From Deinococcales bacterium (GTDB lineage Bacteria > Deinococcota > Deinococci > Deinococcales > JAAFIG01): DNA of 64,000 nt. Of the stretch, positions 1 to 64,000 are shown piece after piece (the stretch's first letter is position 1; each line of letters begins with the position of its first letter). The stretch lies in contig JAAFIG010000021.1 of NCBI GenBank assembly GCA_013298595.1, positions 1 to 64,000 of the forward strand. Reading direction: 5' to 3'. The position numbers and the translations under genes are program-made. The notes under the pieces are model-generated. The model had not been told where the DNA came from, did no database searches, and saw only the letters and a program-made list of their open reading frames with translations.

Positions 1-54
1 GAGGACAACATCTTTGCTTACCTCAATTGAATTCGTATTGGTCGGTACGAGCTT

Positions 55-528
55 GTGTTTGCCGCAAGATTGCAGGGCATAATCTGCGGATTTGGTTGGG
101 GCTATAAACCACTAGCACCCGACGTATATTGGTTGGTTCGTTATGCTGTTGAAGACGACCCAAGTTTTGAAGGCGAATTTGAAACGTTTGAGCAATTTAA
201 CCAAAGTATCTGGGATTATTACTGGGCAAATGCTAACGCCGTTTTTATTGCTACGCACCAGCAAACTTGGGTTGCCATGTCAGGTGTTCATCTCGAGGCA
301 CGCAAAAATAACAGCACTTCAACAACTTTAACAGGTACAGCTCGAGATCATCGCGGGCATGGATTAGCCCAAGCTGTGAAATTACTCGCCATCAATCATG
401 CTATGCAGCATGATATTCTCGAGTTAAAAACCGCCAATGACTCGAGGAATACAGCGATGCTGGCAATTAATCAAAAACTTGGTTTTATAGCACATGGCGA
501 ATTTGTTTGGTTTGAACGAAAAATCTAA
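55..528 (+). CDS. GNAT family N-acetyltransferase, 5' part lost or interrupted
   Basis: This is the C-terminal part of a GNAT acetyltransferase, which transfers an acetyl group from acetyl-CoA to an amine. The fold is shown by the acetyl-CoA loop near residues 97-103 (D-H-R-G-H-G-L) and the usual ending N-x-x-M-L-x-I-N-x-K-L-G-F. The GTG start at 55 is only the first available codon. The same frame is open from base 1 but holds a TGA at 28-30, and the residues around it align in position with the first GNAT domain of the next gene. I therefore suspect a longer two-domain enzyme broken by a nonsense change. The substrate is unknown. The next gene follows in the same direction and is a likely paralog. 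Confidence 0.7.
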   Translation: MFAARLQGIICGFGWGYKPLAPDVYWLVRYAVEDDPSFEGEFETFEQFNQSIWDYYWANANAVFIATHQQTWVAMSGVHLEARKNNSTSTTLTGTARDHRGHGLAQAVKLLAINHAMQHDILELKTANDSRNTAMLAINQKLGFIAHGEFVWFERKI

Positions 529-585
529 GCCATTCATCCGCCAATGCGCGTATGCCATCTGGTGCATGAAACGTTAAACTTTTCT

Positions 586-1518
586 ATGGAATTTAAACCA
601 TATCAAACCGCAGATGTACAGGCATATGTTGAATTTATCAACACTGCCAATCCTACTCGTCCAACAACTGCCGAGCGAGTTCAGTACTTTGATTCAACTC
701 GAGAGGCTAGTGCTAAATTTGCGCGTTACTGGGTGCTTGAGTCTAGCATACCAATTGCGGTGGTCAGTTTTGAAACACCTATGTCGAATCCTGCACCCAA
801 TGAATATAGTTTTGAGCTTGTGTTACCAACTGAATCAAAGCACTTGGCTAAAAGCCTTTTTATGGCGGCACAACCTTTAGCTGCTCGGCTCGAGCCAAAA
901 TTATGGCGCGTTGTCTGCCAAGAAGATCATTGGCAATATAAATTTTTTCTCGAGCAGGGTTTTAACGAATTTGATCGGATGTGGGCGAGTCAATTACCAC
1001 TCGAGGATTTTTCTTTTGTACCTTTTCAAACCATTCTCGAGAAAGCCAAAAGTGCTGGTTTAACAATTCGTACTTTAGCCGATGAATTATCTGATCCGAG
1101 TTTCCTGCGGCGCTACTACGATGCCGTTATTGAAATTCTTTACGATATTCCTGCTGCCACACCATTACAACCTTGGAGTTTTGACCTTTGGAAACAACGT
1201 TTGCTCGAGGATCCAACATTCCTCCCAGAAGCCCAATTTATTGGTTTTATTGGCAGAGAAATTGTTGGGGTTTCACAACTTTTTACCTCTGCTCGAGCCG
1301 CCACAATCCAAACTGGTTTAACAGGTGTCAGAGGTACTTATCGCCATCAGGGTTTTGCTTTTGCACTCAAACTCGAGGCTGCCCAGTACGCCCAGAAAAA
1401 AGGGTTCAAGTTTGTACGAACCAATAACCACGTGATAAACCGTCCAATGCTAACCATTAACGAAGCCCTAGGTTTTATGAAAGAACCTGCCACAATTTAC
1501 CTCAGAAAAGAAATCTAA
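586..1518 (+). CDS. Two-domain GNAT family N-acetyltransferase
   Basis: The protein of about 310 residues carries two GNAT folds. The first lies in the N-terminal half and is degenerate. The second ends with the acetyl-CoA loop (T-Y-R-H-Q-G-F-A) and the family ending N-x-x-M-L-x-I-N-x-A-L-G-F. I chose the ATG at 586 because the protein then begins with a typical first strand (M-E-F-K-P-Y) and a TAAACT box lies 5 bp upstream. An in-frame ATG at 544 would add 14 residues that look unlike the family. It lies just after a probable paralog. The target is unknown; single-protein GNATs of this shape acetylate antibiotics, amino acids or protein N-termini. Confidence 0.8.
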   Translation: MEFKPYQTADVQAYVEFINTANPTRPTTAERVQYFDSTREASAKFARYWVLESSIPIAVVSFETPMSNPAPNEYSFELVLPTESKHLAKSLFMAAQPLAARLEPKLWRVVCQEDHWQYKFFLEQGFNEFDRMWASQLPLEDFSFVPFQTILEKAKSAGLTIRTLADELSDPSFLRRYYDAVIEILYDIPAATPLQPWSFDLWKQRLLEDPTFLPEAQFIGFIGREIVGVSQLFTSARAATIQTGLTGVRGTYRHQGFAFALKLEAAQYAQKKGFKFVRTNNHVINRPMLTINEALGFMKEPATIYLRKEI

Positions 1519-1552
1519 CCCCGACGAAAACCACCAAACAACATCAAAAACA

Positions 1553-1577
1553 GGGCGAACACAAGGTTCGCGCCCTA
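1553..1577. repeat. Short palindromic intergenic repeat, copy 1
   Basis: A GGGCGAA arm and an imperfect TTCGCGCCC arm flank an ACAAGG-type loop, and a CTAC tail follows. The same pattern recurs near 4159, 8183, 9453, 9505 and 38616, always between genes or at gene edges. It resembles REP-like elements. It lies in the 220-base gap before the penicillin-binding protein gene, where I see no other gene. Confidence 0.6.
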
Positions 1578-1726
1578 CGAAAACCGATACCTTGAACGTC
1601 GCAATGCACTAACCTCACCTATTTTCAGCGCTGACAATTTGATGAAAGTCATCTATCGTTCAACCTTCATTCTTTGTCCTTCCTCCCTTTTCCCCTTCAT
1701 GAGAACTGTCCTCATATGAAAAAGCG

Positions 1727-1732
1727 TAAAAT
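1727..1732 (+). promoter_or_regulatory. TAAAAT -10 box of a leaderless promoter for PBP1A
   Basis: TAAAAT ends exactly 6 bp before the ATG at 1739, and there is no Shine-Dalgarno sequence. Transcription should therefore start at or next to the start codon. No good -35 box is visible at the usual distance. Confidence 0.6.
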
Positions 1733-1738
1733 ACTTCT

Positions 1739-4087
1739 ATGCGCGTGATAGTACGCATCTTTAAAATTTTATTTGCCTTTGTTTTTGCCGCTCTGATTGC
1801 AGGCACGGCTGTTGCTGCTACGTTCTTGTTTCGCTGGACACGAGAATTACCGCCTGTTTCGCAGCTCGATCAGTATCGGCTTGAGGGTACAACTAAGGTT
1901 TCAGCTCGAGATGGCAGTTTAATTGGTGTGCTTGCACCCACCATTGGTAAAGAGCGGATTGATCGTCGTCCTGTGAAATTAACCGAGGTTGCTCCGCAGG
2001 TAGTGGCTTCGATTGTGGTTGGTGAGGATGAAAATTTCTTTACCCATTACGGGTTTAATCCGTTGCGTTTAGCTGCCAGTATTTTTCAAACAGTGGTTAA
2101 GGATAATTGGCAGGGTGGTAGTACAATCACTCAACAATTGATGAAAAATACGCTGCTTGACGATATTAAAGATGATGTTTCTCGAACAGCCGAACGTAAA
2201 ATCAAGGAAATTATGCTCTCGGTTCAAGCCGAGCGATTCTTTACCAAAGACGAACTTTTAACTTTGTATATTAATACTTCGTTTTGGGGTGGTAATTTAT
2301 ATGGTATTCGTGCTGCTGCACAAGCGTATTACAACAAAGAACCTTCGGATTTAACCTTTGCCCAAGGTTTGTATTTATCCAGTATTATTCCTTCTCCAAA
2401 TGGTTTTTCCAAGGATTTATGCCGTGCCCGTAGTGGTATGAAATTGCGTTTACAACGTTTACTCGAGAATAAATGGGTTTCTTATGATGAAGCTCAAGCT
2501 GCTTGGAAAAATTCGTGGGTGCCTCGAGGTTGGGGTAAGGTCACACTGGATGCAAAAGGTTTAGTGAAGGGTTGCACCTATGCCAAAGGGCGTTTAATCA
2601 CTCCCGAGTTGCTTAATAACCGAATCAATATCATTGATGAAATTCGTACCGAACAAGCGCCGTATTTTATGTTTGAAATTCGTAAGTTTTTAAAAGACAA
2701 ATATGGCGACCAAGCTTTTAGTGGTGGTGGTTTACGGGTTTTTACCACCCTTGATCCAAAAGCCCAATTAGCTGCCGAAGCGGCTGTGAAAAATGCGCGT
2801 CGTCCGTGGGGTGGCAAAGTCGAACAAGTTGCCTTGGTTGCCTTAGACCCCTATACAGGCGAAGTTCGAGCTATGGTTGGTGGCAACGATAATAGTGGAC
2901 GTGACGAATTTAATAGGGCTGCCTCGAGTCAAATGCGACGCAGTCCTGGCTCGAGTGTCAAACCGTTGTTGTACACCTTGGGTATCGAAAAAGGTTTGTA
3001 TCCGTGGACGTATGTTTCTAATTCGTACTTACAAGCGTATTCACCTGGACAACCCTCAAAACCAGGTTGCCCACGCAATTATTATTGCCCGCGTAATTTT
3101 CCTGGAAGTCCTAACAGCACAGGCAGTTTACGGTTCTCGCTTAATTACTCATTGAACTTACCGACAGTACGCATTTTAAAAGATTATGTTGGCATTCCTG
3201 CCTTCCGTGACCGCCTGAAAATGCTTGGCTTTAATGTGGACGATAGCATCGGACTCTCGAGTGCCATTGGTGGTATTGCAGTTAATCCTTTGCAAATGGC
3301 AACGGCTTACTCGAGTTTTGTCAATGGTGGTGTGTACATTCAACCAACCTATATTCGGCGAATCGAAACGGCTGATGGTCGGGTGTTATTCCCCACCCAA
3401 GATGATGTCCAAGTGCGCCGTAAAGTCTGGTCGCCACAAGTTGCTTACACTGGCTTAGATTTAATTCGAGGTGTGGTCAACGATAAAACCAGCAGTGGCG
3501 AATTTGCCAAAGATGCTCGTTTACCCGGACGTGATGTTGGTGGTAAAACAGGTACAACCAACGATGTGGTAGACATGTGGTTTTTGGGCACAACCCCTGG
3601 TTTAGTGGCAGCGGTTTGGATGGGTAACGACGATAACTCCCAGATGCCACAAAATGCGTACAGTGGCGATTACATGCCAAAAATTTGGGCAGATTTTATG
3701 CGCGGCGCACTCGAGGGCGTACCACCCAGCAGTTATCGTGTACCCGATTATGTTGGTTTTAGTAGCCGCCAAGGGGTTCGTATGGCATATCCAACACGGG
3801 TTGACATCCCAGAAAATGCGCCACCGCCACCACCTGCCCAAGAACCTGAGCCATATCGTCGTCCGATTGTTGATACCATCCCTGGTGATGGTGAAGACCG
3901 TGTGATTGTTGCTGTCAATAGTTGTGCTAAAAATGCTGCCAGTGTGCCACCTCGAGCTGATGAATTCACACCACCACGTTGTGTGCAAAACCAAAGTATC
4001 AATGTACGTGACCTCGAGTTATACGATCCAAATTGGCAACCACCCGCCGACCCTGTTCCCGAAAATCCTGTCACACCACCGAATTAA
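1739..4087 (+). CDS. Class A penicillin-binding protein (PBP1A-type)
   Basis: This bifunctional enzyme polymerises lipid II into glycan strands and cross-links the stem peptides in the periplasm. One membrane anchor spans about residues 7-30. The GT51 glycosyltransferase domain follows, with the catalytic E-D-E-N-F-F-x-H-x-G motif, then Q-G-G-S-T-I-T-Q-Q and the conserved Y-I-N-x-x-F-W-G region. The transpeptidase domain has S-S-V-K (serine acyl-enzyme site), S-L-N and K-T-G-T-T. A proline-rich tail of about 100 residues ends the protein. The length of 782 residues is normal for the family. It stands alone, and a TAAAAT box 6 bp upstream suggests a leaderless transcript. Confidence 0.96.
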   Translation: MRVIVRIFKILFAFVFAALIAGTAVAATFLFRWTRELPPVSQLDQYRLEGTTKVSARDGSLIGVLAPTIGKERIDRRPVKLTEVAPQVVASIVVGEDENFFTHYGFNPLRLAASIFQTVVKDNWQGGSTITQQLMKNTLLDDIKDDVSRTAERKIKEIMLSVQAERFFTKDELLTLYINTSFWGGNLYGIRAAAQAYYNKEPSDLTFAQGLYLSSIIPSPNGFSKDLCRARSGMKLRLQRLLENKWVSYDEAQAAWKNSWVPRGWGKVTLDAKGLVKGCTYAKGRLITPELLNNRINIIDEIRTEQAPYFMFEIRKFLKDKYGDQAFSGGGLRVFTTLDPKAQLAAEAAVKNARRPWGGKVEQVALVALDPYTGEVRAMVGGNDNSGRDEFNRAASSQMRRSPGSSVKPLLYTLGIEKGLYPWTYVSNSYLQAYSPGQPSKPGCPRNYYCPRNFPGSPNSTGSLRFSLNYSLNLPTVRILKDYVGIPAFRDRLKMLGFNVDDSIGLSSAIGGIAVNPLQMATAYSSFVNGGVYIQPTYIRRIETADGRVLFPTQDDVQVRRKVWSPQVAYTGLDLIRGVVNDKTSSGEFAKDARLPGRDVGGKTGTTNDVVDMWFLGTTPGLVAAVWMGNDDNSQMPQNAYSGDYMPKIWADFMRGALEGVPPSSYRVPDYVGFSSRQGVRMAYPTRVDIPENAPPPPPAQEPEPYRRPIVDTIPGDGEDRVIVAVNSCAKNAASVPPRADEFTPPRCVQNQSINVRDLELYDPNWQPPADPVPENPVTPPN

Positions 4088-4158
4088 AAAATAAGACTGA
4101 CCGTTAGAAAAGCAAGATGGCTACGATTTCAAAACAAGACAGACACGATTAAAAAACA

Positions 4159-4184
4159 GGACAGACACGGAGGTCTGTCCCTAC
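4159..4184. repeat. Short palindromic repeat, copy 2, between convergent genes
   Basis: GGACAGAC at 4159-4166 and GTCTGTCC at 4173-4180 form a perfect 8-bp stem around a 6-base loop, followed by CTAC. It belongs to the same family as the repeat at 1553 but has different arm bases. It sits between two convergent stop codons and may also act as a terminator, although it lacks a T-run. Confidence 0.6.
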
Positions 4185-4195
4185 CAAGATTATCT

Positions 4196-5983
4196 CTAAC
4201 CCACTAAAGCGCAGAATTCGTTGATCCGTTGGCGAATCTGGTCTAAGCTCGAGCGCCAAAAATCGGGGGTTTGGATATTGATACCAAATCCACTGGCAAG
4301 GCTGGCAGCGTCGGCTAAGCCTGTGCTCGAGAGTAAGGTATCATATTTGCTTTTAAAATCTTCGGGGTTCTGTTCGTACTGGGCGTATAAACCAAGACTA
4401 AAAAGCAATCCAAAGGTGTACGGATAATTATAAAAACTAAGTCCTGCACTGTAATAATGCCCTTTGACTGCCCACATATACGGGTGGTATGTGCTGGCAT
4501 CTAAACCATCACCGTAGGTTTCGTCTTGTGCCTCGAGCATTAGGTTTTTGAGTTCCTGCACCGATAATTCTCGAGCTTCTCGTTTTTGAAAAAGCCTTGA
4601 TTCAAATAAGAAACGGCTGTGAATGTCCACCACCACTTGGTTTTGTCCTTGTAATTCGGTATCAAGAATATACAATTTCTCGAGTCCAGTGGCAGTTTTT
4701 AAGGCAGCATTGGTAACGATGGTTTCGCAGAAAATACTGGCAGTTTCGGCAAGGGTCATCGGGGTTTGGCGTTGAATCGCGGTGCGGTCTTTGAGACACA
4801 AATTGTGATAGCCATGCCCAAGTTCGTGAGCCAATGTAGACAAACTATCTAAGCTCGGCTCGAAATTCATCATGATTCGACTTTCATCGCGGCGCACACC
4901 CATGCAAAAAGCACCATCGCGTTTACCTGCTCGAGGTTCGGCATCAATCCACTGTTCGGTGTAACTGCGTCGCGCAAATGCCTCGAGTTTTGGACTGTAT
5001 GTACCAAATTGTTCGGCAATAAATTCTGTGCCAGAAGCCCAATCCCATGCTCTGCCAGCCTGACCAACGGGGGCAAGCATATCCCACCACGTTAAACTAC
5101 TGGTGCCTAAGAACTTGGCTTTGGCTTTCAGGTACCGCCGAAAATCGGGAAAGGATTCGACACAGGCTTGCTGCATGGCATTCAGCGTGACACGGTCTAT
5201 GTTGGCACCATGTAAACTTGGCTCGAGGGCATCGGCAAAACCTCGGCGCTGATTAACCACATTAACTTCGCCTTTGATGCTGTTCAGTGCCGCAGCTAGT
5301 GGCACTTCTACGGTTTGCCAACCCGCTAGTTCGGCATCATAGGCAGCTTTGCGTTTGCTGGCATCCGTGTGCCGCGCTGCGGCTCGAGCTGCACTCATCG
5401 GGATACGTTCGCCTTGCACCACAACCTCGAGCCGACTGGTGACATTGCCATGCAGTTTGCTCCAAGCACTCGAAGCACTGGGGCTTAAACTGCTGCGTAA
5501 ATCTTCTTCCGCAGGATCCATCTGATGCCTTGCCGAGAACTGCATTTTCTCAAGTGCATAGGTGTAGCCTCGAGCCATTTCAGAAAATTGTAAAGACCCT
5601 GATACATCTATGCTACCAATCCAAGCGGTGAAGCGAGTTGCCAGTTTACCCAGTCGAACGTGCGCTAATTGCAACTCCGAGGCTTTGGCTTGCGCGAGGT
5701 CGTTACGCGAATCGGTACTGGTAAAACAGCTAATAAATCCTTGGACTAACCGAACCTTTTCTTGTATCACATTCATTCCAGATAACACAGCCTCGAGTGG
5801 CTGTGCGGTATCAGCGCCGCTAGGCGAAACCTCAAGCTTCTGGATTTTATGCTGCTCGAAAACTGCCTCGAGCGCAGTAATTTCCGTAAATAAAGCTTGG
5901 AAGTCCGCATTAAACTCGGCAGAATCAAGGGCTGGGTAAAATGCGGTGGTGTTCCACTGCGGCAACAAAGAATTTTGGCTCAT
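4196..5983 (-). CDS. pepF: M3 family oligoendopeptidase F
   Basis: This is a zinc-dependent cytoplasmic oligopeptidase of the M3 (thimet/PepF) family that cuts short peptides. The zinc site H-E-L-G-H lies near residue 388, and a conserved E follows in E-T-A-S-I-F-C-E-T. The length of 595 residues matches PepF. The N-terminal half is the helical lid typical of the family. No signal peptide is present. It converges with the PBP gene. A TATACT box lies 8 bp before the ATG, so the leader is very short or absent. Confidence 0.93.
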   Translation of the reverse strand: MSQNSLLPQWNTTAFYPALDSAEFNADFQALFTEITALEAVFEQHKIQKLEVSPSGADTAQPLEAVLSGMNVIQEKVRLVQGFISCFTSTDSRNDLAQAKASELQLAHVRLGKLATRFTAWIGSIDVSGSLQFSEMARGYTYALEKMQFSARHQMDPAEEDLRSSLSPSASSAWSKLHGNVTSRLEVVVQGERIPMSAARAAARHTDASKRKAAYDAELAGWQTVEVPLAAALNSIKGEVNVVNQRRGFADALEPSLHGANIDRVTLNAMQQACVESFPDFRRYLKAKAKFLGTSSLTWWDMLAPVGQAGRAWDWASGTEFIAEQFGTYSPKLEAFARRSYTEQWIDAEPRAGKRDGAFCMGVRRDESRIMMNFEPSLDSLSTLAHELGHGYHNLCLKDRTAIQRQTPMTLAETASIFCETIVTNAALKTATGLEKLYILDTELQGQNQVVVDIHSRFLFESRLFQKREARELSVQELKNLMLEAQDETYGDGLDASTYHPYMWAVKGHYYSAGLSFYNYPYTFGLLFSLGLYAQYEQNPEDFKSKYDTLLSSTGLADAASLASGFGINIQTPDFWRSSLDQIRQRINEFCALVG

Positions 5984-6036
5984 CTAAGAACAGTATAAAC
6001 ACTCGAGAGAATTCAACAACAGCACACGATGAAAAT

Positions 6037-6066
6037 AAAAAATCCCGCAATGCAGGGGGATTTTTT
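6037..6066 (-). terminator. Intrinsic terminator after the Skp-like gene
   Basis: Ten-base arms (AAAAAATCCC at 6037-6046 and GGGATTTTTT at 6057-6066) give a hairpin with a T-run on the minus strand, just past the stop of the gene at 6077. It also ends transcription in the other direction, away from the pepF promoter. Confidence 0.85.
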
Positions 6067-6076
6067 CTGCTCGAGT

Positions 6077-6610
6077 TTATGCTTTTGGTTTATTAATTTC
6101 CAGAATGACATCATCGGTAATATCCAAGGCAGAGTTTGGATTAACATAAATTACCAAACCAGAATTTGCCGCAATTGCCCTGTCCAGCACAACACCACAC
6201 CCTCGAGCATTAGCGACTTTTGCTACAGCTGCATCCACATCCTTGGTGATTGGTTCAAGCAACTTATCAATCTGGGCTTTTAATTGCGCTTGCCGAGCCT
6301 GACCTGTTTTAATCAGTGTTTCGTATTGTTGACGTTCAGCAGCTGTAGCTGTGCCATTAGAAATTTTGACTTGCAATGCTTGAACTTGATCCGAAAGCAC
6401 CTTTAACTCGTCCTGTGCTTTCTTTTGAGCCTCGAGTACCTTAGCTCCTTGTGGATGATTCTGCAACACCTTCTGAGCATTCACAAAACAAATTGTGGTG
6501 GATGCCGCAGGATTTGGTGGTGTTACAGGTGTGGTTTGTGCATTAGCAACACCTAGCAAACAAACAACCGCTACCAATAAAACTCGAGGGGCAAAGAAAA
6601 GTTTTTTCAT
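6077..6610 (-). CDS. OmpH/Skp-family periplasmic protein, paralog 1
   Basis: A signal peptide of about 24 residues ends at A-N-A-Q. The mature protein begins with the strand C-F-V-N-A-Q-K-V-L, as in Skp, followed by a long charged coiled coil (about residues 58-125) and a C-terminal V-V-L-D strand. Skp proteins are trimeric chaperones that hold unfolded outer-membrane proteins in the periplasm. The length of 177 residues is normal. A second paralog lies 70 bp upstream on the same strand, so the pair may share transcripts. GAGAGG about 11 bp before the ATG may serve for ribosome binding. The client proteins are unknown. Confidence 0.85.
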   Translation of the reverse strand: MKKLFFAPRVLLVAVVCLLGVANAQTTPVTPPNPAASTTICFVNAQKVLQNHPQGAKVLEAQKKAQDELKVLSDQVQALQVKISNGTATAAERQQYETLIKTGQARQAQLKAQIDKLLEPITKDVDAAVAKVANARGCGVVLDRAIAANSGLVIYVNPNSALDITDDVILEINKPKA

Positions 6611-6680
6611 GACCCGTAGCCTCTCATAATCAGGTGAGACAAAACTGAAACTGCTATGAATTGAACCTGCATCTTTGGTA

Positions 6681-7187
6681 CTACTTTTTTAACTCGAGCA
6701 CCACATCTTCTGTGATATTCAAATACTGCTTTGCATCGTAATACATAACACTTGTCGCACCCTCGAGAACGCGATCATCTAGGACAATCCCACAACCACG
6801 GGCAGGTGCAATCTTAGCGATTGCTACTTCAATTTGTTGCATGATGGGCAACCGCGCATTCTCGAGTTGTTTAGCGATTTGCAATTCGCGCATTTCTTTT
6901 GTTTTTACCAATGTGATGTACTTCTGGCGTTCCTCCGTAGTGGCAGTATCCAAAATAATGGCATTATATAAACCTTGTATAAGCACATTTAATTCTTTTA
7001 ATTCTGCATTGGTAGCGCGGCGCAACTCGAGATACTTTCTACCTTGTGGCAAAACTTCAAACAACCGATTGGTTTCCACAAAACACGTTTTGCTCGAAGT
7101 ACTCACGGCACCCTGAGCATACCCAACAGCACCAAAGAACAACACGCTTAGCACCACTGCCCGCACCAATCCAAAAATTGTTTTCAT
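6681..7187 (-). CDS. OmpH/Skp-family periplasmic protein, paralog 2
   Basis: This 168-residue protein has a signal peptide ending near G-Y-A-Q, a coiled coil in the middle and the shared C-terminal pattern A-R-G-C-G-I-V-L-D-D also seen in the next gene. It is clearly a tandem duplicate of the 6077 gene. The conserved G-C-G keeps one cysteine in both copies, which could allow a disulfide. The role is inferred to be periplasmic chaperoning of outer-membrane proteins. GATACT lies close to the start, so the promoter is probably just upstream. Confidence 0.82.
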   Translation of the reverse strand: MKTIFGLVRAVVLSVLFFGAVGYAQGAVSTSSKTCFVETNRLFEVLPQGRKYLELRRATNAELKELNVLIQGLYNAIILDTATTEERQKYITLVKTKEMRELQIAKQLENARLPIMQQIEVAIAKIAPARGCGIVLDDRVLEGATSVMYYDAKQYLNITEDVVLELKK

Positions 7188-7241
7188 TGAACTTCAGTAT
7201 CCTCAAGTTTAATGAAAACCATATCCAAAGATGATGAGGTA

Positions 7242-8096
7242 CTACACGTCCCAGTAGGTCAACGCAACCCCATTTGGTCGCACCAAACTCGAGAATTTCT
7301 CCAAACCTGCTTTATCAGGTAACTCGAGATGATAACGAAAATTCCATAAGTAATGCTGCACAATTCGCTCTGGTAAACCAAGCCGAGCTGCTTCAAGCGA
7401 CGCAATATCCGATAAATGCCCAAGTCCAGAACGCCGCGCTCGACGCATAGAAAGCACCAAATCAAGTGATGGCGGATGGTCGGCTCGGGTTGCCCACACG
7501 GCAAAAACAAATGGCATGCCCGTATGTACAAACCAAGACATGGCTAAATCTGTGACTTCAACATCCTGACCACTCGAGAGTTTGCCACGATTCGGCAAGC
7601 GAAACATCTGCGTTGTCTCAGAAATCGGACCACACAACCGGTACCACTCCGACAATGCCCCATCGCCAATCAGCAACACCGCAGGGTATTTTTGCAACAA
7701 AAGCTCGAGATTTGGTTCTTCACGCACCAACGTTGCCTCGATCCCATCGAGTTTTAACAATGTCTCGAGCAATTTGACACTGGTCGCTGAATGTGTCGTC
7801 ACCGCAATGGTTTTACCTTGCAATTCCGCCCAAGGCACGGTGTGAAAAAGTGCCACGCTATACACCGCGCCTAATACTGAAATCGAAAAATCAGGTAATG
7901 CCCGCAATTTATCTGCATTTTCAATAAACTCAAACGCCGAAATATTTGCCACATCCACCCGCCCCTCGAGCAAAGCCGAGTTAATCTCGGTTGGAACCCC
8001 ACGAAACCAAGAAATATCCTGACCAACCAACTCAGTCTCGAGCGAATGCAAAAGCGGAGCAACATTGGTATACCCAATAATTCCCAAGCGAGTCAT
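7242..8096 (-). CDS. mqnA: Menaquinone biosynthesis protein MqnA (chorismate dehydratase)
   Basis: MqnA dehydrates chorismate to 3-[(1-carboxyvinyl)oxy]benzoate, the first step of the futalosine route to menaquinone. The start (R-L-G-I-I-G-Y-T-N-V-A-P-L) matches the family, as do the periplasmic-binding-like fold and the length of 284 residues. No other mqn gene is in the window. A TAGACT box ends 6 bp before the ATG, which points to a leaderless mRNA. The gene is divergent from deoB. Confidence 0.9.
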   Translation of the reverse strand: MTRLGIIGYTNVAPLLHSLETELVGQDISWFRGVPTEINSALLEGRVDVANISAFEFIENADKLRALPDFSISVLGAVYSVALFHTVPWAELQGKTIAVTTHSATSVKLLETLLKLDGIEATLVREEPNLELLLQKYPAVLLIGDGALSEWYRLCGPISETTQMFRLPNRGKLSSGQDVEVTDLAMSWFVHTGMPFVFAVWATRADHPPSLDLVLSMRRARRSGLGHLSDIASLEAARLGLPERIVQHYLWNFRYHLELPDKAGLEKFSSLVRPNGVALTYWDV

Positions 8097-8249: not shown

Positions 8250-9419
8250 ATGAAAATCCATGTCATTGTGCTGGATAGCGTTGGTGTTGGCGCATTGCCC
8301 GATGCTCATTTATTCTCGAACAGCTCGGCTTATCCTCGGGGCGATGAGGGTTCGCATACAATCAATCATGTTTTAGAACAAACAGGTATTGTATTACCGA
8401 ATCTCGAGGCGCTGGGTTTGGGTTGGATTCCAACAGTCAAAGCAACTCGAGTGGCAAAACCTACAGGTAGTTATGGTCGGATGCGTGAAGTCAGTATGGG
8501 TAAGGATACCAGTACTGGGCATTGGGAATTTATGGGTATTCAACTCGAGCATCCTTTTCAGGTATTCCCTGATGGTTATCCTAAAGCAGTGATGGATGCG
8601 TTCCAAACAGCCATTGGACGTGGTTGGTTGTGCAATAAAGCATACAGTGGCACCGATGTGATTCGGGATTATGGTGCTCAGCATCTCGAGACAGGTTTTC
8701 CTATTGTGTACACCAGTGCTGATAGTGTTTTTCAAATTGCTACGCACGAAGATCGCGTGCCGCTCGAGACGTTGTATCGTTGGTGCAAGGAAGCTCGAGC
8801 CATTTTACAAAACGAATTTGCTGTAGCTCGAGTGATTGCCCGTCCATTTCGGGGTTTGCATCCGTTTGAACGCGCTGGTGAGCATCGTAAAGATTACTCA
8901 TTGGTGCCACCTGCTAATGCGTTGGATGATTTACTGGCAGCGGGTTTAGATGTGATTGGGTTGGGCAAAATTCCTGATATTTACGCTGGGCGTGGTTTTA
9001 CGCAAAGTATTCATACCGATAATAACGATGATGGTGTGCAGAAAATGCTCGAGATCATGAAAAGCAATTTTCACGGTTTAGCTTTTTTGAACCTTGTAGA
9101 TTTCGATGCCAAATACGGTCATCGTCGAGACGTACTTGGCTATGGCAAAGCTTTAGAAGCCTTTGATAAGCAACTCCCAGAAATTCTTGCTAATGTCTCG
9201 AGTGGTGACGCACTGTACCTCGTCTCGGATCATGGTAACGACCCAACATGGTTTGGTTCAGATCACACTCGAGAACACGCGATGCTGCTCGAGTACCAAC
9301 CAAACACAACCGCTCGAGATTTAGGTGAACGCAGCACCTTTGCTGATTTAGCCGCCACGATTTGTGAAGGCTTACAAGTACCTTGGAGTGGTCATGGCAC
9401 CAGTTTTTACATCAAGTAA
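8250..9419 (+). CDS. deoB: Phosphopentomutase
   Basis: DeoB interconverts ribose-1-phosphate and ribose-5-phosphate (and the deoxy forms) in nucleoside salvage. It belongs to the alkaline phosphatase-like metalloenzymes. Visible motifs are the metal and nucleophile site [11 protein letters not shown] at the start, [10 protein letters not shown] near residue 90, and D-H-G-N-D-P-T with D-H-T-R-E-H near the end. The length of 389 residues is normal. The ATG at 8250 is right because the family begins [16 protein letters not shown] box lies 6 bp upstream. The gene is followed by the folate gene in the same direction. Confidence 0.95.
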
Positions 9420-9452
9420 CAGTTGGCTAAACACCCAAATCATTGATTGTAA

Positions 9453-9480
9453 CAGGGCGACCACAAGGGTACGCCCCTAC
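9453..9480. repeat. Short palindromic repeat, copy 4
   Basis: CAGGGCGACCACAAGG and GTACGCCCCTAC make up this copy, one of the best matches to the family pattern. It follows the deoB stop codon. Confidence 0.65.
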
Positions 9481-9504
9481 AAAAAAAATCTCTCAATCAT
9501 AATC

Positions 9505-9529
9505 GTAGAGGTGAGGCGTGCCTCACCCT
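9505..9529. repeat. Short palindromic repeat, copy 5, overlapping a start codon
   Basis: GGTGAGGC and GCCTCACC form a perfect 8-bp stem with a 2-base loop. The GTG start of the next gene (9518) lies inside it. It is 25 bp from copy 4. Confidence 0.6.
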
Positions 9530-10099
9530 GATAAGCCCACGCTTAGGCTCGAGCAGCGCAAACTTCGGAATGCTTTACCTGATGTCTCGAGTCAGATTTG
9601 TGCTGTACTCATTCCGTGGTTAGCTGCTCAAGCGGTAAAAACTGTGCTGGCATACAAAGCATTTGCTTCTGAAATTTCACTCGAGGCATTGCCAATTGCC
9701 TTACCTGATATCATGTTCTTAACAACTCGAGTGGCGTATAACAAAGTCTTAACATTGCACGATTTCTCGAGTGCCACAACCACCAACAAATACGGGATTT
9801 TAGAACCACCACTTGGCACTCCCGAAATCGAACCTCGAGCTGTGGATGTTGCCTTGATTCCCGGTTTAGCTTTCACTCGAGATGGCGCACGACTTGGGTA
9901 CGGTGGTGGTTTTTACGATCAGTTGCTACCACAACTTCGATCAGATTGTGCCTTGGTTGGTGTGACTCGAGCAGCGCTGTTAGTATCAACTTTACCGCTC
10001 GAGCCTTGGGATGTTGCCATGACACATTTGGTGGTCGAGGAAGGATTATTTGATTGCCGCACTACGAGTTTGCTTAGGGATTTCAAAGATCGTGGTTAA
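9518..10099 (+). CDS. 5-formyltetrahydrofolate cyclo-ligase
   Basis: This enzyme uses ATP to turn 5-formyl-THF into 5,10-methenyl-THF and so recovers a folate storage form. The diagnostic motif R-L-G-Y-G-G-G-F-Y-D-Q lies near residue 125, and the basic N-terminal helix (L-E-Q-R-K-L-R-N-A-L-P) is the ATP-site helix of the family. The length of 193 residues is normal. The only start codon that keeps this helix is a GTG inside a palindromic repeat, so the original start may have been replaced. The 3' end overlaps the shifted tail of the convergent gene by about 50 bp. Confidence 0.88.
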   Translation: MPHPDKPTLRLEQRKLRNALPDVSSQICAVLIPWLAAQAVKTVLAYKAFASEISLEALPIALPDIMFLTTRVAYNKVLTLHDFSSATTTNKYGILEPPLGTPEIEPRAVDVALIPGLAFTRDGARLGYGGGFYDQLLPQLRSDCALVGVTRAALLVSTLPLEPWDVAMTHLVVEEGLFDCRTTSLLRDFKDRG

Positions 10100-50134: not shown

Positions 50135-50323
50135 TTATTGTGGCGGCAACCCAAAACGCTGACGAACTTCTTGTGAGGTAAAATGCCGTCCTGCATCAAT
50201 ATCAGCTTGACCAGCTTCAACAGCTTGATGTACATAAATCGCGTACTGTAAATCTTCCCATGTTGCATCGTCAGGCAACTGCTCGAGCAAACGCTGGGCT
50301 TGTTCACGAATCAGGGTTTTCAT
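50135..50323 (-). CDS. Small antitoxin-like protein without a toxin partner
   Basis: The 62-residue protein has an opening helix and the motif L-P-D-D-A-T-W-E-D-L-Q-Y-A-I-Y-V, then A-G-R-H-F-T-S-Q-E-V-R-Q-R-F-G-L. This pattern is common in type II antitoxins paired with ParE/RelE toxins. No toxin gene is beside it: the neighbours are an AraC and a MerR gene. TATCTT lies 7 bp before the ATG at 50323, chosen over upstream in-frame starts that lie in noncoding sequence. Confidence 0.7.
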   Translation of the reverse strand: MKTLIREQAQRLLEQLPDDATWEDLQYAIYVHQAVEAGQADIDAGRHFTSQEVRQRFGLPPQ

Positions 50324-50475
50324 GGGTATAAAGATACAACTAGAACTTAAAAGTAGCAAGAAAATAATGTAATTCGAGATTAAACCCCAACCCATAGTTC
50401 TTTTACAAAAGATACTACGCCATGTCCGAAATAAATCGCTTGACTTCGAGTGAACTCTAAGGTTTAAGGTTAGGT

Positions 50476-50853
50476 ATGTCCATTGATTATTCAATTGCAG
50501 AAATTTCACAGCGAACAAAGCTAAGTGACCATACACTGCGTTACTACGAGCAAATAGGACTTATTGGACCTATTTTTCGCACAAAAGCGGGGTATCGTCG
50601 CTATCAGCAAAAAGACATTGAAGCCATTGAATTTGTTAAACATCTTCGGGCAACGGGGATGTCTGTTGCAGATATGACACGAATGGGTGAGTTGCGTGCT
50701 CAAGGTCTTCATACACAAGCAACTCGGATGCAGATTCTTTTTAACCATCGCAACGCTGTGCGATTACAAATCAACGAATTAGAAGCTAACTTAATTGCAA
50801 TAGAAGATAAATTAGCTTCACATGGCTGGATCATTAATACAAAGGAATCATGA
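50476..50853 (+). CDS. MerR family transcriptional regulator
   Basis: The 125-residue protein is a short MerR type: I-A-E-I-S-Q-R-T-K-L-S-D-H-T-L-R-Y-Y-E near the start, K-A-G-Y-R-R-Y near residue 38, then a dimer helix. There are no C-terminal cysteines, so it is not a metal sensor of the MerR/CueR kind. It overlaps the hydrolase region downstream and probably controls it. The pair lacks CTCGAG completely. Confidence 0.9.
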   Translation: MSIDYSIAEISQRTKLSDHTLRYYEQIGLIGPIFRTKAGYRRYQQKDIEAIEFVKHLRATGMSVADMTRMGELRAQGLHTQATRMQILFNHRNAVRLQINELEANLIAIEDKLASHGWIINTKES

Positions 50854-50855
50854 CA

Positions 50856-51734
50856 ATGAAAACACTAAAATCTTTCTTCAAAAGTGAAGCTGGCATCATT
50901 CATTACGAAATTCAGGGTGATGGTTTTCCTGTTTTAGTTGTACCAGGTGGTCCGGGTTCAAGTCATGGTAAGTTTCCCGAACTTGCTGCACATCATAAAG
51001 TTGTATATTTTGACCCACTTGGAACGGGTCAATCAGATCGTCTTGTTAACCAGCAGAGTTATACGGTGGAGCTATATGCAAAAACCATGTTGCAATTGCT
51101 CGATCACCTTGGTATTCAAACAACGCATGTGCTAGGAGTGTCCTTTGGAGGTATTCCTGCGGCTGAGTTTGCTGCGTCTTATCCTGAGCGGGTCACATCA
51201 TTGATTCTTTCCAATGCACAAGTAGATGCCCAAAGTTGGCAGTTGGGAAATATAGATGCCTTTAATCACCATATTCGTCATCAATACCCAGAAGTATGGG
51301 AAAAAATTATGAATCTCCGAGCGGCAGGAGTCTTATCAAATGACCCACGTTATCAAGACCTTTTAGCACTTCCCAATAAACAGATGTTGTGGGCTGGCGT
51401 TGACCCAATTGCACTTCCTCCAAGTGAGGAGGAAACATTTGATGAACACACGTATTTGGCATTTATTGGGAATGACCCTGAGTGGACAATCAATGGAACA
51501 TTGTCTGGTCACACGGTTTTGGATCGGCTTGCTCATTTGGGATTACCAACTTTGATTCTGACAGGTCGGCGCGATTTAATGTCTTCTCCTGCATTAGCAA
51601 AACGCATTGTAGATGCGTTATTGCCAAGCAAAACAACGCAAGTGATTTTTGAACGGTCTGCACATCGCCCTTGGGCTGAAGAACCAGATAGTTATTTTAA
51701 TTTGCTATATACGTTTATGGAACGCCTATCGTAA
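50856..51734 (+). CDS. Alpha/beta hydrolase (proline iminopeptidase-like)
   Basis: The protein of 292 residues has the oxyanion region V-P-G-G-P-G-S near residue 30, the nucleophile elbow G-V-S-F-G-G near 97 and a late S-A-H-R catalytic histidine region. V-P-G-G-P-G is typical of proline iminopeptidase-like enzymes. I chose the ATG at 50856, 9 bp after AGGA; an ATG at 50850 overlaps the merR stop. The substrate is unknown. Codon use looks foreign. Confidence 0.87.
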   Translation: MKTLKSFFKSEAGIIHYEIQGDGFPVLVVPGGPGSSHGKFPELAAHHKVVYFDPLGTGQSDRLVNQQSYTVELYAKTMLQLLDHLGIQTTHVLGVSFGGIPAAEFAASYPERVTSLILSNAQVDAQSWQLGNIDAFNHHIRHQYPEVWEKIMNLRAAGVLSNDPRYQDLLALPNKQMLWAGVDPIALPPSEEETFDEHTYLAFIGNDPEWTINGTLSGHTVLDRLAHLGLPTLILTGRRDLMSSPALAKRIVDALLPSKTTQVIFERSAHRPWAEEPDSYFNLLYTFMERLS

Positions 51735-51846
51735 AATAATTTTTACGACAGATTTGCCATAAACTTTGCTCGAGCAGAAAAGAAACTCACATTTGAAGGG
51801 TACACCAACTAATGTCAATATTCACTTTTCCTGAAATAAATTAATT

Positions 51847-55912: not shown

Positions 55913-57256
<1,344 letters not shown>

Positions 57257-58907: not shown

Positions 58908-58939
58908 AACGCGACAGATCAGTTGATCTGTCGCGTTTT
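58908..58939. terminator. Strong hairpin terminator
   Basis: AACGCGACAGATCA and TGATCTGTCGCGTT form a perfect 14-bp stem with a 2-base loop, followed by TTTT. It lies 12 bp after the cytochrome gene stop. Confidence 0.85.
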
Positions 58940-58959
58940 ACTGTCACTAAGCCATTTAC

Positions 58960-59127: not shown

Positions 59128-59286
59128 ATGAATTACCAACTTGCTCTGCACCTTGGTCAGGAACGCCTCGAGTCTCTTCGTCACGAAGCCAGTTTAATGC
59201 GACAAATCAAAGCCTTGCTTGCTCCACGTCCAATGAAACGCAATCAGTCTTTGCAGCAATTTGAACAACGCCGTGTTTCTACTTAA
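59128..59286 (+). CDS. Small charged protein of unknown function
   Basis: The 52-residue protein (N-Y-Q-L-A-L-H-L-G-Q at the start, then R-H-E-A-S-L-M-R-Q-I-K) is rich in Q, R and L. AGGAG lies 7 bp before the ATG at 59128, and a terminator follows 25 bp after the stop, so it looks like a complete single-gene unit. Homologs are not recognised. Confidence 0.6.
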   Translation: MNYQLALHLGQERLESLRHEASLMRQIKALLAPRPMKRNQSLQQFEQRRVST

Positions 59287-59310
59287 AATTTCTTCTACTT
59301 TCTCCTCCTA

Positions 59311-59345
59311 CCCTGCTTGTTTCATGCCAAGCAGGGAAATTTTTG
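59311..59345 (+). terminator. Terminator after the small gene
   Basis: CCCTGCTTG (59311-59319) and CAAGCAGGG (59328-59336) form a perfect 9-bp stem followed by AAATTTTTG. Confidence 0.8.
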
Positions 59346-59437
59346 TTTCACTTCCAAAACAACTGGTTTTGCCTGTCTTGGCTATTAGGTTATCGTCAAT
59401 ACTCGAATTCTGCTAAGAACTCCATAAACTAGCTCCC

Positions 59438-60322: not shown

Positions 60323-60369
60323 CAAACAGTTTATTTTGGGGCGGGGTTCCGTTTTGCCGTTTTCTCGAG

Positions 60370-60375
60370 TAGACT
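60370..60375 (+). promoter_or_regulatory. TAGACT -10 box of a leaderless promoter for a leader peptide
   Basis: TAGACT ends 6 bp before the ATG at 60382, which begins a 23-codon frame. It fits the pattern of other starts in the window. Confidence 0.5.
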
Positions 60376-60381
60376 CTTTTC

Positions 60382-60453
60382 ATGAGGTCACTGCGGTTAA
60401 GCGCTGGATTTAGTGGCACAAGCGGCTCTACCGATCCGCCTTGTGTATTCTAA
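60382..60453 (+). CDS. Possible leader peptide overlapping an attenuator hairpin
   Basis: The 23-residue frame (M-R-S-L-R-L-S-A-G-F-S, then P-C-V-F) is rich in serine, glycine and threonine. Its promoter box is 6 bp upstream and its stop lies in the right arm of the hairpin at 60407-60456. Such an arrangement could let ribosome speed control read-through into the aminotransferase gene. It is inferred only from the sequence; the peptide may have no function of its own. Confidence 0.4.
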   Translation: MRSLRLSAGFSGTSGSTDPPCVF

Positions 60454-60465
60454 ATCGTTTTTCGT
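60407..60465 (+). terminator. Long hairpin with T-run, possible attenuator
   Basis: GATTTAG (60407-60413) pairs with CTAAATC (60450-60456), and CACAAGCGG (60417-60425) pairs with CCG-C-CTTGTG, leaving a small internal loop. GTTTTT follows. It is either the terminator of the acyltransferase gene or an attenuator of the next gene, 60 bp downstream. Confidence 0.6.
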
Positions 60466-60519
60466 GTTGCTTAACAATCTTTTTTAGCTCGAGCTAATCT
60501 CGAGCCGTGGGGTGAATTC

Positions 60520-61812
60520 ATGAATTCAAATTTTTCTTTACCAAATCAGAAATCCAAAGCCATTCTCGAGCGGTATGCCAGTTCGATGAGTACATCTAAT
60601 GCTGTTTCTTTTCCAATGGTTATTTCGCATGGCGAAGGTTGCTGGTTAACAGATGTGGATGGCAATAAATACTTAGATATGATGGCTGGAATTGCTGTTA
60701 ATACCACTGGTTATGCCCATCCTGCGGTGGTTAAGGCGGTGCAAGAACAAGCTGCTAAAGTGCAACACTTATGCTTTGCTGTTTTTGCCTCCGAACCACA
60801 AGTGGCATTAGCCGAACGCTTAAAAAAGCATGTTGGACAAGATTATCGTGTTTTCTTTGGCAATAGTGGCACCGAAGGTATCGAAGCGGCTATGAAATTA
60901 GCCCGTTACCACACCAAACGCCCTTATTTTATTGCTTTTACAGGTAGTTTTCATGGTCGTAGCATGGGTGCTCTGAGTTTAACCGCCAGTGTTTCCAAGT
61001 ACCGTAAAGGGTTTGGTAATCTTGTTCCAGGTGTTTTTCATGCACCTTACCCGCAACCATATAAGTACCCGCGCACTGCCGAGATGGTTCTCGAGCATCT
61101 CGAGTTTTTGTTTAAGCACACCACTCCACCCGAAGAAGTAGCTGGTATTTTTGTTGAACCCATCCAAGGCGAAGGTGGGTATATTGTGCCACCTGCTGGT
61201 TTTATGCAGGATTTACGCAGTATTTGCGATAAGCATGGCATTTTATTGGTCGCTGATGAAGTCCAAACAGGGGTTGGACGCACTGGGCAATTCTTAGCTT
61301 CGGAGTTTGATAATGTTCAACCAGACATTGTGGTACTAGCAAAAGGGCTTGCCAGTGGTTACCCGATTAGTGCAGTCATGTTCAAAGAACACATTTCGAC
61401 ATGGGGTGCAGGCGCACACGGCACAACCTTTGGTGGTAATCCTGTCTCGAGTGCCGCTGCACTTGCTACCCTTGATATTCTCGAGAATGGTGCGATGGAA
61501 AATGCTCGAGTACAAGGCGAGTACTTATTAGGTCGGATGCGGGCATTACAAGCTCGAGTACCACAATTAGGTGATGTGCGTGGACGTGGATTGATGATTG
61601 GTTTAGAGTTTGTCAAAGACCCTGTATCTAAGCTCGAGCATCCAGAGTTACGTGACCGTGTGCAGCAACTGGGTTTAGAGCATGGTTTAATTTTACTTGG
61701 GGCTGGCAGTCATGCTATTCGTTTGGCACCACCACTGGTTTTAACAACCGAGGATGCCAAATATGCAGCCGATACTTTAGAAAAAATTATTCTTGAAGCA
61801 GCAAGCCACTAG
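60520..61812 (+). CDS. Class III (acetylornithine/4-aminobutyrate-type) aminotransferase
   Basis: The 430-residue PLP enzyme has G-N-S-G-T-E-G near residue 108, F-H-G-R near 142, D-E-V-Q-T-G near 247 and the PLP lysine in L-A-K-G near 275. The family includes acetylornithine, ornithine and GABA aminotransferases, and racemase-like members that cannot be told apart here. GGGGTGA lies 6-7 bp before the ATG. A possible attenuator precedes it and a strong terminator follows. Confidence 0.9.
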   Translation: MNSNFSLPNQKSKAILERYASSMSTSNAVSFPMVISHGEGCWLTDVDGNKYLDMMAGIAVNTTGYAHPAVVKAVQEQAAKVQHLCFAVFASEPQVALAERLKKHVGQDYRVFFGNSGTEGIEAAMKLARYHTKRPYFIAFTGSFHGRSMGALSLTASVSKYRKGFGNLVPGVFHAPYPQPYKYPRTAEMVLEHLEFLFKHTTPPEEVAGIFVEPIQGEGGYIVPPAGFMQDLRSICDKHGILLVADEVQTGVGRTGQFLASEFDNVQPDIVVLAKGLASGYPISAVMFKEHISTWGAGAHGTTFGGNPVSSAAALATLDILENGAMENARVQGEYLLGRMRALQARVPQLGDVRGRGLMIGLEFVKDPVSKLEHPELRDRVQQLGLEHGLILLGAGSHAIRLAPPLVLTTEDAKYAADTLEKIILEAASH

Positions 61813-61829
61813 TTTTTTTACAAGTAATG

Positions 61830-61860
61830 AACTGGGCTGGTGTTAACCGCCCAGTTTTTT
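61830..61860 (+). terminator. Terminator after the aminotransferase gene
   Basis: AACTGGGC (61830-61837) and GCCCAGTT (61849-61856) form an 8-bp stem followed by TTTTTT. Confidence 0.85.
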
Positions 61861-61902
61861 ATTACTAAAATTCTCAGATAAACCCAAGCTACACTACATA
61901 AC

Positions 61903-63057
61903 ATGAAATTGTTTCGTTGGTCATGGTTACTCGCATTTGGTGTTGCTGGCGTTGTTTTAGCCCAACAAACAGTATCGGTGCTGATTAATAATAAAACAGC
62001 GCAACTCGAGACTGTACAGCGTAATGGCAAGGTTTTTGTGGAGGCAGTAGCATTTGCTAAAGCGCTTGGTGCAACCGCTAAACTCGAGGGGGGCAAACTT
62101 AGTGTAACAACAGCCAATGCACCTTTGTATACGCAAGGCACAACTCAGCAAGCAGGTGGGATAGGTGTGCTGGGGCAGTCTTATACACTTGGGCGGACAA
62201 AACCGTTAAATTTTTTGTTACGCAGTGCTGAATTTCAAGTCTCGAGGGTTGTGATTGGTAGTGAAATTTATGCACCAAGCTTGGATCAAAAATTATTGTT
62301 ATTGCGTGGTACGGTGCAAAATCCACAAAAAGTCGAAGCGTATTTATCCAATTATCATTTTAAATTAACAGCTGTGGATACAAATGGCGAAAATCATGTG
62401 TTTGCGAATTTTCTAGGCAGAGAAGGCAGTACTACGGCTTTAAATCTTTACTTAAAACCGACACAAAAAATAGACGTTTTTATTCCAATTCTGGTGCCTG
62501 CCAAAGGTACTATTCCTAAGTTGATTATCGAAAATAAAGACGAAAATGGCTCACCTGTATTGCGTTACGATCTGAGTAAATCTATTCGTGGTTTAAGTGC
62601 GCCTTATGCAGCTACTGACCCTTTTACAGCCTTATCCGTTGTGACCGCCACATCGGGTGTGTATTACTCAACAAAAAAATTTGATTTTAAACTCGCTTCA
62701 GTTGATTACTCAACTGAAGCCATGACTAATGAATCACTCGAGCCATCAGAGCGCTTGTTGCTGGCAACTTTTGTTGCTCGTAACCCAATAGATAACTCTG
62801 ATAGTCGGTATTTATTAGACTTAAAAAATGACCTCGAGTTTAGTGCCTTAGATGCGGATGATAATATCAACAAAGCGTTGTACGACTGGTATAAAGTCAG
62901 CCGACCTGAACCACTGCGTGAATTCCCACAAATGGTCTTTAATCAAGAAGCCAAATTCCGTATTGCTTTTAAAATTCCTCGAGACCTGTTGGTAAAAAAG
63001 CTCAAAGTTCGTGGTGGATTACGTGATTTTGTTTTTGATGTTTCGGGTACGAAATAA
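61903..63057 (+). CDS. Secreted protein with copper-amine-oxidase-like N-terminal domain
   Basis: The 384-residue protein has a signal peptide ending near V-L-A-Q-Q. The next 60 residues look like the copper amine oxidase N-terminal type domain (V-S-V-L-I-N, then F-V-E-A-V-A-F-A-K-A-L-G). The rest has two beta-rich domains similar to DUF4352-like folds (L-R-G-T-V-Q-N-P). TACACT lies 7 bp before the ATG. No catalytic motif is visible. Confidence 0.7.
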   Translation: MKLFRWSWLLAFGVAGVVLAQQTVSVLINNKTAQLETVQRNGKVFVEAVAFAKALGATAKLEGGKLSVTTANAPLYTQGTTQQAGGIGVLGQSYTLGRTKPLNFLLRSAEFQVSRVVIGSEIYAPSLDQKLLLLRGTVQNPQKVEAYLSNYHFKLTAVDTNGENHVFANFLGREGSTTALNLYLKPTQKIDVFIPILVPAKGTIPKLIIENKDENGSPVLRYDLSKSIRGLSAPYAATDPFTALSVVTATSGVYYSTKKFDFKLASVDYSTEAMTNESLEPSERLLLATFVARNPIDNSDSRYLLDLKNDLEFSALDADDNINKALYDWYKVSRPEPLREFPQMVFNQEAKFRIAFKIPRDLLVKKLKVRGGLRDFVFDVSGTK

Positions 63058-63366
63058 GTTTGCATTACAATTTTAAGATGCAGCTGTCACTCGAGATTTC
63101 GAGAATACTACTCACCTACAATCTCTAGGCAACGTGTTTTCAATTACCTCAGGGCAAAAAGTATAACAACTGCAATCGAATGCAGTTGTTATGGGTTGTT
63201 ATTTAACCTGCCTGACACATTTTAATGTGTAAGATACTCCTATGTGCGCTTTTCCACATCGCGTGTAAAATGCGTGTGCAATTTGCACACTGTTCTTGTT
63301 CAAAGCCTGATAGCGTATGCTAATAGAGATACGTTCTCAATTCCAAGTTTCAACCCGAGGTATTTC
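63058..63366. other. Intergenic region with several palindromes
   Basis: ATAACAACTGCA and TGCAGTTGTTAT (63163-63192) form a perfect 12-bp hairpin that probably terminates the previous gene. ACACATTTTAATGTGT (63215-63230) is a 16-bp palindrome. GTGTGCAA-T-TTGCACAC (63274-63290) is a 17-bp palindrome. The last two may be regulatory sites for the response-regulator gene. No gene is visible. Confidence 0.6.
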
Positions 63367-63735
63367 ATGGCAAAAATCATCGCTGTAGACGATTCAATGG
63401 CAGACTTAAAACTCGAAGAATCTATTTTAATCGGTGCAGGACATCAAGTTTCTTTGTGTATCAATGGTGATGGTGTCGAAGCGTTAATCGCTGCCGAACA
63501 ACCCGATCTGATTTTGTTAGATGTTGTCATGCCACAGCGCAATGGATACGAAATTCTACGCAAATTACGCCGCGAAGAAAGCAGTAAAGGCATTCCTGTT
63601 TGTATTATCTCGAGTAAAGATCAACCTACAGATATCGAATGGGGCAAACGCCAAGGTGCCTCGGATTACTTACCAAAACCCTACACTGCCGATGGTTTAT
63701 TGGCAATGGTGGCTCGTTTAACCGCTAAGGAGTGA
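63367..63735 (+). CDS. CheY-like response regulator
   Basis: The 122-residue receiver domain has the acidic pocket V-D-D near residue 7, phospho-acceptor D in L-L-D-V-V-M-P near 52, and K in L-P-K-P near 102. There is no output domain. A GAGG site lies about 7 bp before the ATG at 63367, chosen over an upstream start. A CheW gene follows 5 bp downstream, so the two belong to a chemotaxis or twitching (Pil-Chp) cluster. Confidence 0.92.
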   Translation: MAKIIAVDDSMADLKLEESILIGAGHQVSLCINGDGVEALIAAEQPDLILLDVVMPQRNGYEILRKLRREESSKGIPVCIISSKDQPTDIEWGKRQGASDYLPKPYTADGLLAMVARLTAKE

Positions 63736-63740
63736 ATGCA

Positions 63741-64000
63741 ATGGTATCAAATCGTGTTTGTGTGGTTCGTTTCGGACAGCATATTGTTGCTGTTCCAGGC
63801 GCGTATGCTCGGCAAATTCATAGTTTAACCGAGTTGCGCCGCACACCCCGAACCCCAAATACATTACTTGGTTTATTTGCAGTCCGCTCACAAGTGATAC
63901 CTATTGTGACACTCGAGCCTTTACTTGGTCTAAACATCGAAAAACATGAATTTGCTGTACAACTCGAGTTTGAAAAAAAGCAATTTGGTTTTGCCATAGA
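63741..64000 (+). CDS. CheW-like coupling protein, cut by the window end
   Basis: The partial frame of 86 residues starts with a CheW-type domain (V-V-R-F-G-Q-H-I-V-A-V-P, then V-I-P-I-V-T-L-E-P-L-L-G). CheW links receptors to the CheA kinase. AAGGAG lies about 9 bp before the ATG at 63741, past the stop of the response regulator. The rest of the cluster lies beyond the window. Confidence 0.82.
   Translation, partial: MVSNRVCVVRFGQHIVAVPGAYARQIHSLTELRRTPRTPNTLLGLFAVRSQVIPIVTLEPLLGLNIEKHEFAVQLEFEKKQFGFAI

Follow-up and report, generated by a model that had tools for sequence, protein, structure and literature searches.

CTCGAG is a highly iterated palindrome in the genomes of two related Deinococcales families

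What makes one palindromic hexamer recur, on average every 157 bp, along a stretch of Deinococcales DNA? The window (the whole stretch analysed, 64 kb) contains 407 copies of CTCGAG, or 6.36/kb; dinucleotide-preserving shuffles of the same DNA (n = 100) gave a mean of 6.2 copies and a maximum of 15. CTCGAG is the commonest hexamer of the window, and the runner-up, ACTCGA (141), overlaps it. A preliminary description had reported 22 copies in the first 4,000 bases, about five per kilobase over most of the window and a GC content near 43%. We counted 21 copies and 43.9% GC, and the density proved higher than claimed; as described, copies lie throughout the window, within genes of both strands and between genes (Table 1). 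Intergenic hairpins, named there as a setting, are not a preferred one, copies near enough to pair being depleted. No rRNA was found in four of the longest CTCGAG-free stretches examined.

Table 1. Positions of CTCGAG features in the window.
Feature	Positions	Strand	Remarks
CTCGAG, 407 copies	1..64000	.	across the window, in genes of both strands and between genes
CTCGAG, first copy in the window	292..297	.	palindrome, identical on both strands
Densest 1-kb bin, 14 CTCGAG	9001..10000	.	
Longest stretch without CTCGAG, about 1.5 kb	50288..51768	.	spans alpha/beta-hydrolase-like ORF 50850-51734

The excess is neither close to expectation nor confined to the window: the window's genome has 27,159 copies in 4.58 Mb (5.9/kb), against only 15 of the reversed control GAGCTC. 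Genomes of the motif-rich family, which is uncultured, carry about 27,000 copies each, 30-50 times above expectation. Over 462 kb of the window's genome, coding DNA has 5.97 CTCGAG/kb and intergenic DNA 5.45/kb, and strictly intergenic DNA pooled from three genomes has an observed/expected ratio (O/E) of 36. All three reading frames are used, frame 0 taking the largest share. By these counts CTCGAG fits the description of a highly iterated palindrome: no other oligomer of the genome is as over-represented, and it recurs across coding and non-coding DNA alike.

Among 111 genomes of the phylum Deinococcota, densities above 5 CTCGAG/kb were found only in one family (f1, 4 genomes with 26,619-28,178 copies each) and in one genus of a second (g11 of family f2, 2 genomes). 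These six motif-rich genomes (G000-G003, G012 and G016; 58-94% complete), from two related Deinococcales families, have about 6-8 CTCGAG/kb, and the density stays near 6/kb over 45-59% GC. Relatives of the window's genome are the metagenome-assembled genomes (MAGs) JAAFJQ01 (G001), JANYHH01 (G002) and JANXTZ01 (G003), all named Deinococcales bacterium. A stringent triple-site scan of 85k genomes found the motif-rich level in these three Deinococcales MAGs and in no fourth genome; its haloarchaeal matches were largely frame-0, in a TCGA-rich background. Separately, Natrialbaceae haloarchaea (L215, L217, L219, L227, L241) carry CTCGAG at 4-5/kb, exceeding codon usage (pooled odds ratio 5.7), and GTCGAC is also abundant in them.

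Within genes, CTCGAG encodes 67-79% of all Leu-Glu dipeptides of the motif-rich genomes, with an odds ratio over codon usage of up to about 120. In the window's genome the share is 67%, against 1.6% predicted by codon usage; outside Leu-Glu, CTC makes up 8% of its Leu codons and GAG 19% of its Glu codons. Similarly, CGA accounts for 80-94% of Arg codons in the context xCT_Gxx and 10-15% elsewhere (91% and 15% in the window's genome), and TCG for 80-86% of Ser codons in C_AG and 11-18% elsewhere (80% and 11%). Moreover, the process has altered protein sequence, since Leu-Glu is itself 2.3-fold over-used: across a sample of five motif-rich genomes its O/E ranges over 2.2-2.4, where Glu-Leu and Leu-Asp give about 1.0 and 0.7-1.0, and it falls to 1.74 in the intermediate G008 and 1.05 in the non-iterated relative G004. 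Ser-Ser and [SPTA]R[EDGAV] are likewise over-used in motif-rich genomes.

The Leu-Glu codon-pair odds ratio also orders the lineages: 24-121 in f1, 47-111 in g11, 30 in G101 (a relative within Truepera's family), 17 in G052 (f5, Meiothermus-like), 7.8 in G008, 2.3 in Truepera radiovictrix (G009), 0.8 in G004, 0.4 in a D. deserti plasmid and 0.3 in Thermus pTT27, several of these values coming from small samples. CTCGAG iteration is thus present in weaker form in Meiothermus-group species, marginal in Truepera and absent from the Thermus and Deinococcus DNA sampled. In Allomeiothermus silvanus, which we take to be G044, the odds ratio is 2.0 on plasmid pMESIL01 and 6.2 on the likely chromosome (L394, L397).

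Are individual sites inherited? Between G000 and G001, 62% of aligned CTCGAG are conserved, against 20% for all hexamers. We rejected this conservation as a sign of fixed function, since independent equilibrium occupancy gives the same. Indeed, where Leu-Glu is conserved between species, both carry CTCGAG with a frequency of 0.52, against 0.48 expected under independence, and further species pairs gave observed/expected values of 0.79/0.78, 0.70/0.72 and 0.63/0.65, from small ortholog alignments (about 3,200-7,700 aligned residues per pair). Joint occupancy nearly matches independent draws; the sites are therefore kept statistically, not as inherited positions. They are re-made independently in each species, and every lineage must have the process at work. 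Leu-Glu found in one species only is CTCGAG-coded in 69-85% of cases, its counterpart being most often IE, LD, FE, VE or LQ, each one step away, and the motif is therefore made via amino-acid changes. The leftover, non-CTCGAG Leu-Glu are enriched in the single C-to-T decay products CTTGAG and CTCGAA; C-to-T deviations are about equal at position 1 (O/E 1.79) and position 3 (O/E 2.04), and all one-mismatch neighbours together are not depleted (O/E 1.04).

Gaps between sites are near exponential (coefficient of variation 0.94-1.06), and no regular period was found in the spacing. Start-to-start gaps shorter than 16-20 bp are rarer by up to about threefold, and none of 6 was seen. Occupancy of Leu-Glu by CTCGAG is 0.30-0.35 with a neighbouring site 6-14 bp off, 0.53-0.61 with one at 15-20 bp, and flat at 0.66-0.78 with the nearest site at 21-300 bp: beyond about 20 bp the sites are independent of one another. 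Occupancy does not rise with isolation, which speaks against the kind of mark that the published HIP1 model calls for, one required per kilobase (PMC4390886); a segregation or long-range repair mark would also be expected to saturate with distance, which is not seen. The short-range deficit, weaker between genes, suggests a protein footprint. Hairpin avoidance is a less likely cause, because the deficit persists where no loop fits.

Other palindromes are avoided in the same genomes. In motif-rich genomes (loci L109-L198), depletion beyond fivefold affects 40-54% of palindromic hexamers other than CTCGAG, compared with about 2% of non-palindromes; in G008 and G004 it affects 0-3% of palindromes. 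Both motif-rich families share one avoidance profile (Spearman 0.57-0.77), uncorrelated with that of non-iterated relatives; in the window, GGCC (2 copies) and CCGG (10 copies) are almost absent. This avoidance may reflect heavy restriction pressure.

The iteration extends to a phage. A first viral scan gave mostly high-GC contigs with weaker enrichment, among the matches listed, and a scan with the AT-flanked motif found IMGVR_UViG_3300049491_000613 (L393; positions 1-21581, 21.6 of its 24.7 kb, were examined). This contig carries 117 CTCGAG (5.4/kb, O/E 28, odds ratio 61), no GAGCTC and one GGCC and, like its presumed hosts, is almost devoid of GAGCTC, GTCGAC and GGCC. Its gene products include a DnaB-like helicase, RecT, a terminase, a portal and head proteins. 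The phage probably infects the window's family, as judged from one of its proteins, which is 67% identical over 156 residues to a protein of G003. Low-GC polysaccharide-synthesis genes without CTCGAG (L112:10631-12731, L113:1435-3407) are probably recent acquisitions, and absence of the motif could serve to date gene transfers.

How might such a density be maintained? We tentatively favour an ongoing, sequence-specific and position-independent drive, which would hold CTCGAG at equilibrium via repair or recombination that favours it. A protein would bind CTCGAG, occupying about 15-20 bp, and thereby sway how repair or recombination between chromosome copies turns out: a CTCGAG newly arisen by mutation of a one-letter neighbour would tend to prevail, and one broken by mutation would tend to be restored. 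On a log-odds scale derived from the codon odds ratios, the bias would amount to about 3-5 in the motif-rich families and about 2-3 in genomes of the Meiothermus type, while Thermus and Deinococcus would be at about 0. Such a drive would account for the equal density of coding and intergenic DNA with use of all frames, the near-independent occupancy at conserved Leu-Glu, the over-use of this dipeptide and the C-to-T decay products among its leftovers. The probably recent motif-free genes and the phage density are also consistent with it, although a lytic phage could gain CTCGAG in this way only if host repair acted on it for a long time. Occupancy flat over 21-300 bp and lowered at 6-14 bp fits as well, but exclusion below 15-20 bp could also be short-hairpin avoidance, one-mismatch neighbours in total are not depleted, and equilibrium site frequencies are the same under biased repair and weak selection. 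In a fuller version, possible but held with considerable reserve, the drive would be methylation-independent: a lineage-specific DNA-transaction protein would convert the genome and its phages to CTCGAG, rewriting the proteome, at sites without fixed-position function.

The main rival, which we consider less likely, is weak selection for motif number, each CTCGAG being slightly beneficial as a self mark, as a Chi-like guard against degradation, or through binding by a nucleoid, uptake or defence protein. A phage at full CTCGAG density together with palindrome avoidance looks as if unadapted DNA were attacked, and the avoidance somewhat favours a self mark; footprint-like exclusion and a palindrome readable in both directions would also fit. 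However, no diminishing return is apparent, Leu-Glu 40 bp from a site being occupied as often as at 200-300 bp, the sites lack positional conservation, and proteins have taken on amino-acid changes at many points. A classical Chi function in particular is unlikely, because a palindrome cannot be oriented.

An Elhai-type methylation-directed mismatch repair, in which the old strand is marked by methylation of CTCGAG and new sites build up by directing repair in their own favour, appears improbable. This model was put forward for HIP1 and the alternate HIPs, all of which have a cognate methylase (PMC4390886), and the phylum does have XhoI-type modification genes. However, the solitary CTCGAG methylase suggested in the preliminary description has so far found no support: five Pfam families (PF07669, PF02384, PF01555, PF00145 and PF02086) were searched, and none of their methyltransferases in the window's genome has a clade-wide orthologue, a provisional absence given genomes 58-94% complete and the existence of other methylase families; nor can methylase specificity be read from sequence. 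A C5 methylase is the only one of the window's genome to have a clear orthologue in G001 (74%; 59% in G012); in G002 and G003 its C5 relatives are distant, at 26-30% identity at best, which makes it an unlikely clade-wide cause. A search for MT-A70 gave no match in any DNA searched and was uninformative. The XhoI-family endonuclease (PF04555) and the Vsr endonuclease (PF03852) are absent from all six motif-rich genomes. Within the phylum the former was found only in G018 and, broken, in Truepera, and the methylases adjoining XhoI-family nucleases are not closely matched in any motif-rich genome (at most 24.6%, in G002). Moreover, CTCGAG is about twice as dense as HIP1 at its densest, without saturating at distance, and decay at C1 and C3 is about equal and so gives no sign of m5C at one position.

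Methyltransferase genes were also noted in three particular settings. In Truepera radiovictrix (L001, L374, L375) the XhoI-family endonuclease gene is broken by in-frame stops or a frameshift and adjoins an apparently intact Eco57I-type methyltransferase gene (583 aa). The window's genome has a defence-like cluster (L027:629-11715) with a DpdE/DrmD-like helicase, a DrmMI/type IIG-like methyltransferase and a large neighbour. At L028:4650-6496, an N6/N4 methyltransferase adjoins a distant NotI-family nuclease, likely as a restriction-modification pair.

A preference for CTC and GAG codons, or for the dipeptide, is hardly credible as the whole explanation: frame 0 holds the largest share of copies, and codon usage explains much of the count in high-GC relatives such as Truepera, but for motif-rich genomes it is refuted by the coding/intergenic parity and by the Leu-Glu codon-pair bias, with strong bias in the other two frames too. 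An artefact of assembly, cloning linkers or contamination can be practically dismissed, for although the strongest genomes are metagenome-assembled, the six assemblies include three named records from separate projects, the sites keep reading frames and differ between species, and CTCGAG also recurs in a phage and, at a weak level, in cultured species that have been sequenced.

Whatever its cause, the process carries a warning, as codon and dipeptide statistics of motif-rich genomes reflect a DNA process and not translation. The graded form in cultured relatives (Allomeiothermus silvanus and, marginally, Truepera radiovictrix) and its absence from sampled Thermus make the cause testable by comparison and mutation accumulation.

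Among known systems, XhoI/PaeR7I restriction-modification shares the recognition sequence CTCGAG, but restriction sites are normally avoided and the motif-rich genomes have no XhoI-family nuclease; a Vsr-linked motif of the Dcm/CCWGG kind is not matched either, Vsr being absent. DNA uptake sequences (DUS, USS) number about 1/kb, against about 6/kb for CTCGAG. DUS and USS are likewise dispersed, accumulate by molecular drive and tolerate coding DNA, but, unlike CTCGAG, are not palindromes (PMC1939737). The alternate HIPs of single cyanobacteria (GGCGCC, rCCGGy, GCsGC) are also short palindromes at high density; they are sporadic and each have a predicted cognate methylase (PMC4390886), whereas CTCGAG is clade-wide and graded across several families.

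The likeness to HIP1 (GCGATCGC) drawn in the preliminary description holds: both are short palindromes, each the top oligomer of its genome, found genome-wide within and between genes. They are unrelated in sequence, CTCGAG being a hexamer with a TCGA core from the phylum Deinococcota, and with one CGATCG in the window and relatives among the Deinococcales this is not the cyanobacterial HIP1. HIP1 deviations concentrate at end positions, those of CTCGAG are C-to-T at positions 1 and 3 about equally, and CTCGAG has no detectable cognate methylase in the five Pfam families searched. HIP1 has awaited an explanation since 1995. HIP1 reaches 0.3-2.7/kb (Elhai 2015), against 5.9/kb for CTCGAG. Open-access papers yielded no account of iterated CTCGAG, nor of any HIP beyond the cyanobacteria, and a methylation-independent drive, if true, would on the evidence of that literature be the first reported beyond that phylum. 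With an independent and denser case from a second phylum, general features of HIPs can be told apart from cyanobacterial ones, and those that bear on generality here are no apparent need for a cognate methylase, no saturation with distance, rapid turnover and altered amino-acid use.
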